A stretch of DNA of 64,000 bases, taken from the NCBI GenBank assembly GCA_020853525.1, contig JADYYS010000059.1:55960-119959 (forward strand). Direction: 5' to 3'. The stretch is from Ardenticatenales bacterium (GTDB lineage: Bacteria; Chloroflexota; Anaerolineae; Epilineales; Epilineaceae). A model generated the notes under the pieces. It saw only the letters and a list, made by a program, of their open reading frames with translations. It had not been told where the DNA came from and did not search any database. This document shows positions 2,601-46,779 of this stretch, one piece after another. Both the position numbers and the translations under genes were made by a program. Position 1 is the stretch's first letter. The number at the start of each line of letters is the position of its first letter.

Positions 2601-2748
2601 TGCCCACTCCTGATGATGCCAAGTACATCGGGTCGACGGTTGATGCGTCGACAGCGGCGGGCAGGCGCGCGACTTCGGGGGGGATAACGGCGGCCGGACA
2701 ATCCGTGTTACGCCCGGCTAACCAGGCACGCACGTGATGCGACAACCA

Positions 2749-3035
2749 CCGATCCCCGCCCCCCCGTATTCGCCGACCACCATCCCCGGCCCACACGCAT
2801 TCGCCGACCACCATCCCCGGCCCACACCCGCCCCACCGGCCCACACGAACCCGGGCACGATCGTCTCGTTGGGTGGCGGGGAGAGGATGGCCCGGGGCCT
2901 ACGGGGCAGGCACGGGGACCTGCCCCTACCGGGCGTCGATTGCGTGTGGGCCGGGGATGGTGGTCGGCGATTGCGTGTGGGCCGGGGATGGGTGGGTCGG
3001 CGAATACGGGGGGGCCGTTGTAGGTGGGGATCGGC
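2749..3035. repeat. Long inverted repeat of ~31-bp units (attcgccgaccaccatccccggcccacacgc) flanking a REP-like palindrome
   Basis: Left arm ~2749-2829 and right arm ~2941-3035 are near reverse complements; each arm holds about two units. Confidence 0.8.
2897..2934 (-). repeat. REP-like palindrome GCCCGGTAGGGGCAGGTCCCCGTGCCTGCCCCGTAGGC (copy 1)
   Basis: 38 bp identical to 42132-42169 and 42273-42310. Confidence 0.85.
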
Positions 3036-3113
3036 GCTTGCGACGACATCGTGTCGCGAGCGTGTCCGAATCGCCGTTGTCGGTGAGATCGGAGTGCGGG
3101 TAGGCTCGGAGCC

Positions 3114-3614
3114 ATGAAGGATGGCGAGCGATGGCGCCGGCGGTCGATCCGGTTGCTGTGTTACGACTACGCGGCGGCGGGTGCGTACTTCGTTACGATC
3201 GTCACACAGGACAGGGCGCCAATCCTCGGGACGGTCGTCAACGGGCGGGCGAAGTGCACGGTGGCGGGCCGGATGGTATGGGAAGTCTGGAGTGCGCTGC
3301 CGTCGGTCTATCCGTGCGTACAGGTCGACACGTTCGTCGTCATGCCCGACCACGTGCATGGAATACTCGTTCTTGCGCCCAGGGTGATGTCGGATGATGA
3401 GGCGCTCGAGGTGATATCGTTGCCAACGATCGTCGGTTTGTTCAAGTCGATGACAACGAAACATTACATCGATGGCGTCAATACGCACGGATGGCCATCA
3501 TTTCGCGTACGGCTGTGGCAGCGAAACTACTACGAACGCATCGTCCGCGATGACGACGCGCTCGATCGCATCCGCCGCTACATCCTCGCGAACCCGGCTC
3601 AATGGCGTCGTTGA
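3114..3614 (+). CDS. REP-associated tyrosine transposase (RAYT / Y1_Tnp family)
   Basis: MKDGERWRRRSIRLLCYDYAAAGAYFVTIVTQDRAPILG...DTFVVMPDHVHGILVL...LWQRNYYERIVRDDDALDRIRRYILANPAQWRR: HUH motif (HVH) and catalytic-Tyr region typical of RAYTs. Confidence 0.9.
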   Translation: MKDGERWRRRSIRLLCYDYAAAGAYFVTIVTQDRAPILGTVVNGRAKCTVAGRMVWEVWSALPSVYPCVQVDTFVVMPDHVHGILVLAPRVMSDDEALEVISLPTIVGLFKSMTTKHYIDGVNTHGWPSFRVRLWQRNYYERIVRDDDALDRIRRYILANPAQWRR

Positions 3615-3793
3615 TCGCGCGACGGACCGTGGGTGATCGGCGCCGGAACCATCCACGGTTCGGACCGGAACCTTCTACGGTTTCGGGCAAGATCATGGAC
3701 GATCCGGTGACGAACGACCTGTGGAACGCGCCGCTCGCCCGATCCGTCGATCCGGCCGACACGGGCGGATGCCGCCGGTGAGACGCACGAAAA

Positions 3794-3821
3794 GGCGGGG
3801 GCTGCCGAAGCAACCCCCGCC
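3794..3821 (-). terminator. Rho-independent terminator (minus strand)
   Basis: Minus strand reads GGCGGGGGTTGCTTCGGCAGCCCCCGCC followed by TTTT: GC-rich stem with TTCG tetraloop, downstream of the 3969-4862 gene. Confidence 0.7.
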
Positions 3822-3893
3822 CTTCACGATCCGATCATCGACCAGCCCTGCGCCCTGCCGCACCCATGCGGTCAAGCGGCCGACGCAAGAGGG

Positions 3894-3972
3894 CTAGTAC
3901 ACCACCACTGAACATGCCTTGGGCGGCGACCAGATTGGGGAGTCCCAAGAATCTACAGTGGTGCTGTACTAG
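3894..3972. repeat. 79-bp hairpin element with 17-bp terminal inverted repeats
   Basis: CTAGTACACCACCACTG (3894-3910) and CAGTGGTGCTGTACTAG (3956-3972) pair with one mismatch; inner CTTGGG/CCCAAG stem. Confidence 0.75.
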
Positions 3973-20617: not shown

Positions 20618-21859
20618 ATGACGCCCATCGATCTGCTCACGCCCCCGGCACCACCAACGACGACGCGGCCGGCACCGCCGTCCCGCCCTGTCGTCGACGA
20701 GCCGATGGTCCTGAACATCGGGCCGCACCACCCGAGCACGCACGGCGTGCTGCGCGTCGTCGTGCGGCTGGACGGCGAGCTCGTCGTGTCGGCCGATCCG
20801 GACGTCGGATTCCTGCACACCGGGATCGAGAAGACGTTCGAGGCCAAGACATACGTCAAGGGGATGACGCTGGCTCCGCGGATGGGCTACCTCTCGCCGA
20901 TCCACAACAGCCTGGCGTATGTGCTGGCCGTCGAGAAGCTGCTCGGCGTCGACGTCCCCGAGCGGGCGACGGTGATCCGCGTGATCCTGGCCGAGCTGGA
21001 CCGGATCGCCAGCCACCTCGTCTTCGTCGGCATCCACGGCCTCGACCTCGGCGCGTCGAGCGCCGTCATGTACACCTTCCGCGAGCGCGAGGCGATCCTG
21101 GACATCATGGAGCTCGTCGGCGGGGCGCGGATGTTCCCGATCTACATCCGCCCCGGCGGCCTGTCGTCCGATCTGCCGCCCGAGTTCGAGGCGGCCGTGA
21201 CCGACATCCTCGACCGGCTGCCGGCGGCCATCGACGGGTACGAGCGGCTGCTGACGAACAACGTCTTCTGGAAGGACCGCACCGTCGGCGTGGCCGTCAT
21301 CTCGGCCGAAGAGGCGCTCGCCCTCGGCACCGGCGCGCACATCCTGCGGGCCACCGGCGTGGCATACGACCTGCGCAAGTGCGCGCCGTACTGCGGCTAC
21401 GAGGACTACGAATTCGACGTACCCGTACGCACGGAGGGCGATGCGTATGCGCGTTACCTGCTGCGGATCGCTGAGATGCGCGAGAGCGTGAAGATCGCCC
21501 GCCAGGCGCTATCGAGGCTGCCGAGCGGCCCCTACGTCACCGCCGACCGCAAGGTGGCGCCGCCGCCGAAGCACGAGCTGGCCACCAGCATGGAAGCCGT
21601 GATCCATCACTTCAAGCTCTGGACGGAAGGCTTCCGCCCCCCGGCCGGCGAGGCCTACGCCGCCGTCGAGGCGCCGCGCGGCGAGATGGGGATGTACGTC
21701 GTCAGCGACGGCACGGCCAAGCCGTGGCGGGTCCACATGCGATCCCCCAGCTTCGTGAACCTGCAGGCGCTGGAGACGATGGTCCTCGGGCGTCAGGTGG
21801 CGGATCTGGTGACGGCGGTGGCGAGCCTTGACCCGGTGATGGGCGAGGTCGACCGGTAG
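20618..21859 (+). CDS. nuoD: NADH-quinone oxidoreductase subunit D (set 2)
   Basis: MVLNIGPHHPSTHGVLRVVVRLDGELV...GYLSPIHNSLAYVLAVEKLLG...RVHMRSPSFVNLQAL...GEVDR. Confidence 0.95.
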   Translation: MTPIDLLTPPAPPTTTRPAPPSRPVVDEPMVLNIGPHHPSTHGVLRVVVRLDGELVVSADPDVGFLHTGIEKTFEAKTYVKGMTLAPRMGYLSPIHNSLAYVLAVEKLLGVDVPERATVIRVILAELDRIASHLVFVGIHGLDLGASSAVMYTFREREAILDIMELVGGARMFPIYIRPGGLSSDLPPEFEAAVTDILDRLPAAIDGYERLLTNNVFWKDRTVGVAVISAEEALALGTGAHILRATGVAYDLRKCAPYCGYEDYEFDVPVRTEGDAYARYLLRIAEMRESVKIARQALSRLPSGPYVTADRKVAPPPKHELATSMEAVIHHFKLWTEGFRPPAGEAYAAVEAPRGEMGMYVVSDGTAKPWRVHMRSPSFVNLQALETMVLGRQVADLVTAVASLDPVMGEVDR

Positions 21860-22053
21860 GGGCGATGCATGCATCGCCCATAACACATTGGGACCACGAC
21901 CGCGCGGGCGATGCATGCATCGCCCACGGTGATGGGACCAGCGCGGGCGATGCATGCATCGCCCATGGTGATGGGACCAGCGCGGGCGATGCATGCATCG
22001 CCCACGGTGATGGGACCAGGCGGCGGCCTGCGCGATGCATGCATCGCCCCTAC
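21856..22053. repeat. REP-like array: five (G)GGCGATGCATGCATCGCC(C) palindromes bounded by outer GTAG/CTAC
   Basis: Palindromes at 21860-21879, 21906-21925, 21945-21964, 21984-22003 and 22032-22047; central copies at exact 39-bp period. Confidence 0.9.
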
Positions 22054-22961
22054 ACCCGCCGCCCCGCCAACGCCGTGAACACATCCTCCAACGTCACCTC
22101 CGCCTCCCGCACGACGACGTCGCCGAATCCGACGCCGGCGAGCGCCGCCCGCAGCGACGCCGCGTCGTGCGTCCCGACGTTGGTCACGGCGTGCGCATGG
22201 TCGCCCAGCAGGCTGACGTTGGCCACGCCCTCGACCCGGCCGAGCGCTTCGAGCAGCGGCAGGAGCGGCTCGGCGCTCACGTCCCACGCCGGCCCGGCGA
22301 CCCTTGTCGCCTTCAGGACGTGCGGCGCGTCGAGCGCCAGCAGCCGGCCGGCGTTCATGATCCCCAGGCGGTGGCAGTGCTCGGCCTCGTCCATATAGTG
22401 CGTGCTGACGAAGACCGTCGTGCCCTCCGCTGCCAGGTCGTAGATGATGTCCCAGAACGCGCGCCGCGCTTCGGGATCGACGCCTGACGTCGGCTCGTCC
22501 AGGAAGAGGAGCGGGGGGTTGTGGACCAGCGCGATGCCGAGCGCCAGCCGCTGCCGCCAGCCGCCGGAAAGCGCGCCGGCTCGCATGTCGAGTCGATCCG
22601 CCACCCCGACCCGCTCGGCCACGTCGTGCCGCTCCCGCCCATACAACCCGGCATAGAAGGCCAGGTTTTCCGCAACGGTCAGCTCTTCGTAGAGCGCGAA
22701 GCGCTGGCTCATGTAGCCCACGTTCGGCCGGATCCGCTCGGCGTCGCGCTGGACGTCGAACCCCAGCACCGACGCGGAACCGGCGGTCGGACGCAGCAGG
22801 CCGAGGAGGATCCGGATCGTGGTCGTCTTGCCGCAGCCGTTCGGGCCGAGGTACCCCACGACCTCGCCGCGGCCGACCGTGAACGAGACGCCGTCGACCG
22901 CCGTGAACGCACTGAAGCGCTTGACGAGCCCTTCGACGGCGATCACCGTCTCGGCCGTCAC
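22050..22961 (-). CDS. ABC transporter ATP-binding protein
   Basis: YLGPNGCGKTTTIRILLGLL (Walker A), LSGGWRQRLALG signature, PLLFLDEPTSGVDP (Walker B). Confidence 0.95.
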   Translation of the reverse strand: MTAETVIAVEGLVKRFSAFTAVDGVSFTVGRGEVVGYLGPNGCGKTTTIRILLGLLRPTAGSASVLGFDVQRDAERIRPNVGYMSQRFALYEELTVAENLAFYAGLYGRERHDVAERVGVADRLDMRAGALSGGWRQRLALGIALVHNPPLLFLDEPTSGVDPEARRAFWDIIYDLAAEGTTVFVSTHYMDEAEHCHRLGIMNAGRLLALDAPHVLKATRVAGPAWDVSAEPLLPLLEALGRVEGVANVSLLGDHAHAVTNVGTHDAASLRAALAGVGFGDVVVREAEVTLEDVFTALAGRRV

Positions 22962-42091: not shown

Positions 42092-42097
42092 TCCCCC

Positions 42098-42347
42098 CGT
42101 CAACCCGGCACATCGCCAATACGACAGCGATGCCCGGTAGGGGCAGGTCCCCGTGCCTGCCCCGTAGGCCCCCAAACCACCATTCCCCTCGGCCAACACG
42201 ATCGGCCAACACGATCGGCCAACACGATTTCAGGCCACCGTTGGGATGGCCGATGCGATGTGTGGGGGTTTGGCCTACGGGGCAGGCACGGGGACCTGCC
42301 CCTACCGGGCATCGCTGTCGTATTGGCGGTGTGCTGGGTTGACGGGG
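42098..42347. repeat. BIME-like element: two inverted REP-like palindromes with a 13-bp x3 tandem repeat between them
   Basis: Arms ~42098-42181 and ~42258-42347 are near reverse complements; REP cores 42132-42169 and 42273-42310; cggccaacacgat x3 at 42190-42228. Confidence 0.9.
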
Positions 42348-42354
42348 GGGGCAA

Positions 42355-46709: not shown

Positions 46710-46722
46710 CGTCCGTTAACCG

Positions 46723-46779
46723 GACGTTGGTCTAACCCGACGTTGGTCTAACCCGACGTTGGTCTAACCCGACGTTGGG
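46723..46779 (-). repeat. 16-bp tandem repeat (gacgttggtctaaccc) ~3.5 copies overlapping the HMG-CoA reductase stop
   Basis: Units 46723-46738, 46739-46754, 46755-46770, partial from 46771. Confidence 0.85.

Follow-up and report, generated by a model that had tools for sequence, protein, structure and literature searches.

A small transposase gene in this stretch of DNA (64 kb, the window) is preceded by a palindrome set within long inverted arms, which raises the question of what kind of element the locus is and whether the arms belong to it. The locus is very probably a REPtron, in which a domesticated single-strand DNA transposase, RAYT (REP-associated tyrosine transposase), adjoins one copy, now incomplete, of its REPIN family. 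The basic biology of such loci is known, as RAYTs, REPINs, and REPs inside RAYT genes have all been published. The locus is laid out as follows:

2746..2854: left outer arm, an inverted copy of the right arm, with about 2.7 copies of a 31-bp unit (2745-2827)
2855..2898: remaining spacer, 44 unrelated nt, at the site where other copies of the family hold an inverted REP
2899..2929, minus strand: REP of the GTAGGGGCAGG family (AGG), with the outer GTAG at 2926-2929 and the inner GTAG at 2899-2902
2930..3035: right outer arm, with about 2.5 copies of the 31-bp unit (2937-3017)
3114..3614, plus strand: RAYT of 166 aa, an intact ORF with H80-V-H82, W135, Q136, E141, R145, and the catalytic Y156

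The identity of the gene as a RAYT, proposed in the initial annotation, was borne out by family models, a profile match, and structure prediction. The product matched NF047646, the NCBIfam model of REP-associated tyrosine transposases, with 65.3 bits (E 5e-18), short of the 80-bit cut-off of that model, while the IS200 family gave only 21.5 bits. Relatives in the same genome and in Chloroflexales likewise fall below 80 bits, which makes the cut-off, an annotation threshold and no biological feature of RAYTs, look strict for this branch. Against Pfam Y1_Tnp (PF01797), the product scored 24.5 bits, above the cut-off of 23. No match was found by phmmer with the single sequence against the PDB or by a search of PHROGs. 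A profile built from 44 homologues of many phyla, in which H80-V-H82 and Y156 are conserved, matched the E. coli TnpA-REP structure 4ER8 at E 2e-7. In this profile alignment, W94/Q95/E100/R104/Y115 of 4ER8 correspond to W135/Q136/E141/R145/Y156 of the window RAYT, and W94, Q95, E100, and R104 have been assigned to the guide-recognition region of TnpA-REP (PMC6006769). The AlphaFold model (pLDDT 90) resembles 4ER8 and the IS200/IS605 Y1 transposases of IS608 and ISDra2 (Foldseek E 4e-7 to 6e-6), placing an HUH motif and a catalytic tyrosine in a Y1 fold. Y156 is followed by 10 residues, without a C-terminal extension, and the loop from HUH to Y, 74 residues long, holds no REP.

Direct reading of the minus strand from 2929 to 2899 gives GTAGGGGCAGGTCCCCGTGCCTGCCCCGTAG, in which GTAG stands at each end in the same orientation. 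The order is GTAG-GGGCAGG-TCCCCGTG-CCTGCCCC-GTAG, with a stem of GGGGCAGG/CCTGCCCC and TCCCCGTG as the loop. This palindrome is contained in a 38-bp core (2896-2933), and its end lies 184 bp from the ATG of the 166-aa ORF, close to the 180 bp first estimated for a GTAG-ended palindrome upstream of the gene. The core corresponds to a single REP from an inverted pair that lacks its left partner. That partner was probably lost from 2855-2898 by deletion, because other AGG copies have a left REP at this place.

The palindrome is dispersed over the genome, and the possibility that it occurs only in the window, which the initial annotation had named as a point against its reading, is refuted. Pattern searches, on which all genome counts given here are based, found 33 copies of the 27-mer AGG REP with up to 3 mismatches (15 forward and 18 reverse, against 0 for the reversed control) and about 29 exact sites. 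The 8-mer GTAGGGGC was rejected as a marker by itself, as its reversed control was commoner, and longer patterns were used. Most AGG copies form inward-facing inverted pairs 136-233 bp long, that is, REPINs; the family thus shows both a GTAG palindrome in many copies and inverted pairs of hairpins. Within the window, one complete copy is found elsewhere:

42137..42305: complete AGG REPIN of 169 bp with two inverted REPs and locus-specific outer arms that extend to 42093 and 42349

When inverted repeats within 400 bp were ranked by length over the 64-kb window, this REPIN with its arms (42093-42349) came before the window locus, which was followed by an GTAGGGGC element at 21903-22006. A REPIN of a sister family is also present:

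21856..22053: sister-family (GTAGGGGCGATGC) REPIN enclosing three 39-bp tandem units, between converging ORFs

The outer GTAGs of this REPIN give the TAG stop codons of the two ORFs, at 20618-21859 (plus strand) and 22050-22961 (minus strand), which are nuoD-like and an ABC ATPase.

The host is Chloroflexota-like, as its rpsB is closest to those of Ardenticatenaceae and other Chloroflexota (54-60%). Its genome encodes four RAYTs, each adjoining or containing a different dispersed REP of the GTAGGGGC type. The genes on C6 (L033, 1501-2253) and C47 (L034, 1501-2190) each carry an in-frame REPIN just past the HUH motif, with the stems GAAGC (about 23 exact sites) and ACGGC (about 63 exact sites), respectively. 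The gene on C8 has a REPIN just downstream, with the stem GACGC and about 27 exact dispersed sites. Searches for the GTAGGGGCACG and GTAGGGGCGANGC families returned 63 sites against 6 in the control and 59 against 1, respectively. Copies of the GACGC family carry a motif resembling CGCCCCAGATG about 30-40 nt outside both GTAGs (L032 1291-1454, L193 1501-1647, and L245 441-676). As the other three RAYTs each have a different REP of their own, the AGG REP is left for the window RAYT, to which we assign it by its position next to the gene.

The palindrome also occurs, with up to 3 mismatches, in three genomes related at the level of order or class, in 11 (G005), 10 (G006), and 6 (G013) copies. 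Two RAYT queries detected no RAYT in these fragmented assemblies, only IS200-like transposases. An abundance of the palindrome in relatives lacking a RAYT had been named in advance as evidence against the RAYT-REP link; these genomes bear it out in part, with copies that are mostly single and often stand opposite a different REP with an GGTTGCCCCTAC end. They may be remnants, or the corresponding RAYTs may lie in assembly gaps. At L258-L285 in these genomes, the AGG REP is paired in inverted orientation with a different REP (GTAGGGGCAACCCCCCGTGGTTGCCC), with the loop CCCCGTG retained and the stem altered.

To place the locus among RAYTs at large, we surveyed 84 RAYT genes, made up of the four genes of the window genome plus 80 homologues drawn from a wide range of phyla. 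The density of GTAG palindromes is 0.77 per kb in and 0.53 per kb beside these genes, against 0.029 per kb further out, a roughly 20-fold difference. In 36 of the 84, including two of the four in the window genome, an GTAGGGGC palindrome lies inside the gene, nearly always directly after the HUH motif. These in-gene REPs occur in codon phase 0 (23) or 1 (13) and never in phase 2, which would place a TAG stop in frame. We do not put them forward as new, since examples are on record for RAYT subclass 2.4 (PMC6006769). In other organisms, a REP next to a RAYT gene usually has a stem equal to that inside the gene.

The TAG of a REP serves as the RAYT stop codon at 15 of the 84 loci, with differing stems (L071, L075, L079, L086, L087, L090, L095, L099, L101, L116, L119, L121, L133, L134, and L142). 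Four other REPs start up to 40 nt before a RAYT stop and three up to 40 nt after one. REPs that overlap the 3' end of RAYT genes are on record (PMC3733652); we did not find the exact use of the REP TAG as the RAYT stop codon stated in the literature. A broader reading, in which stop codons across the genome come from REPs, was rejected. A frame of at least 200 codons is closed by 30 of 95 REPs, but TAG occupies that position in every REP by construction, other GTAGGG sites close such frames about as often (14/38), and frames run long in this G+C-rich DNA.

The outer arms were described in the initial annotation as inverted arms of 31-bp units and as an additional layer beyond the REP. The arms themselves are real. 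The units were delimited by TRF, and the arms are complementary at 86% between 2754-2809 and 2931-2986 and at 98% between 2780-2827 and 2944-2991; over their full length they are interrupted by one 10-nt indel and some 1-nt indels. The folding energy of single-stranded 2746-3035 is -138 kcal/mol, compared with -80 +/- 4 kcal/mol for 200 dinucleotide shuffles (z = -14.2). A further tandem array in the window, at 46717-46778, has a 16-bp unit in 3.9 copies with 97% matches.

The separate layer did not hold up. The first 9 nt outside GTAG (CGGGCATCG) are found again at several AGG loci, up to about 30 nt of the window arm are common with the family copies L003 and L005 (on C50 and C56), and other copies have complementary arms of their own. 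Beyond about 10-20 nt, the AGG arms vary from locus to locus. We compared flank complementarity outside GTAG within elements with that of permuted partners. For the AGG family, 3 of 20,000 permutations reached the observed score over 10 complete pairs; strong extended arms occur in only 3 of the 10, plus the window locus, and the result therefore leans on few elements. By the identical test, the ACG family has no such arms (8,507 of 20,000), and the GACGC family, with 3 pairs, is too small for it. Similarity of the two REPs within a pair, measured as private variants in common, was reached in 1 of 20,000 permutations for AGG against 16,188 of 20,000 in the other family, in pairs that were chosen by similarity in their first 13 nt, a choice that touches this test. 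The 31-bp unit is no independent repeat layer, and the arms are best taken as the outer portion of the AGG REP family, apparently duplicated in tandem at the window locus. Self-complementary arms beyond GTAG are the sole part of this picture that we did not find described. We tentatively suggest, with more doubt than conviction, that the AGG REPIN mobile unit reaches well past GTAG, with long arms that are homogenised in each copy and divergent between copies, giving each locus a private hairpin.

Other origins can be proposed for the arms. If the REPIN insertion had hit a pre-existing long palindrome, the arms would be older host sequence, in keeping with their lack of likeness between loci past the first 10-20 nt. 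The segments common to several AGG loci and the armless state of the second REP family of the genome argue against such an insertion, which we consider unlikely. It is scarcely credible that the arms are terminal inverted repeats of the RAYT gene (a TIRtron) into which the REP was inserted by chance. Although RAYTs flanked by TIRs, and TIRs linked to degenerate REPs, have been described (PMC3733652), a TIRtron has inverted repeats on both sides of its RAYT gene. Here, the two arms sit on either side of the REP, upstream of the gene, there is none downstream in 3615-3900, and segments of the arms reappear beside other AGG REPs that have no RAYT.

The link between the family and the gene can be questioned as well. 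The AGG family might be mobilised, now or formerly, by another enzyme, either one of the other three RAYTs or one since lost, with the window copy being incidental. Its association with the window RAYT is one of proximity to a single REP, and three relatives without a detected RAYT have near-identical palindromes, but each remaining RAYT of the genome has its own REP, which leaves AGG for the window gene, and elsewhere the stem beside a gene usually matches the one within it. We regard a different enzyme as improbable. The structure is very unlikely to be a transcription terminator or an mRNA-stabilising hairpin with no mobile repeat. The hairpin is very stable, and REPs act as RNA elements elsewhere (PMC3733652), also near stop codons (PMC12306157); against this stand the many near-identical paired copies, with none in the control, and the REPs inserted in frame within RAYT coding sequences. 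A role in RNA could also add to mobility without replacing it.

The reading as a REPtron agrees with several described systems. By the criteria of PMC6006769 and not by tree placement, the window RAYT best fits Quentin subclass 2.4 (Bertels group 4), which is marked by a glutamate at the E100 position, the lack of a C-terminal extension, a long REP, and three G-C foot pairs. The window locus has E141, no C-terminal extension, and a stem foot of GGG/CCC. It further shares with the subclass the HUH and Y motifs, the W/Q/E/R guide-contact residues, a long GTAG REP with a G-C stem foot, and relatives that carry REPs in frame between HUH and Y. It differs in that its own loop has no REP, a feature that is frequent in the subclass and not obligatory for each member. 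The REPINs of PMC3116915, REP doublets that form hairpins, likewise consist of two inverted GTAG REPs and a spacer, with compensating changes, dispersal, and a link to a RAYT; the family described here is 136-233 bp long, some of its copies have complementary arms outside GTAG, and the window copy has lost one REP. GTAG-tagged palindromes, and REPs, TIRs, or mixtures of them beside RAYT genes, are also shared with the REPtrons and TIRtrons of PMC3733652, which records such palindromes for Chloroflexi too. Unlike in those systems, it is a REP upstream of the gene that lies between the arms here, and not the gene itself.

RAYT cleaves single-stranded GTAG REPs (PMC8266576), and published RAYT biochemistry suggests how the locus could have arisen. 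During a single-stranded stage, such as the lagging-strand template, RAYT would recognise the 5'-GTAG and hairpin, nick nearby through Y156, and then move or copy the REPIN. In the AGG family, the copied hairpin would extend at least 9 nt, and in some copies about 30 nt, past GTAG. After insertion, the arms would diverge between loci and stay complementary by template switching within the hairpin, a process documented in yeast as homogenising the arms of inverted repeats (PMC8604942). At the window locus, a REPIN would have inserted, a 31-bp stretch of arm would have been duplicated in both arms, and the left REP would have been deleted.

Several parallel RAYT-REPIN systems thus sit in one Chloroflexota-like genome. 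The presence of an armed and an armless REP family side by side provides a natural contrast for studying the extent of the DNA that a RAYT copies and how long palindromes survive.
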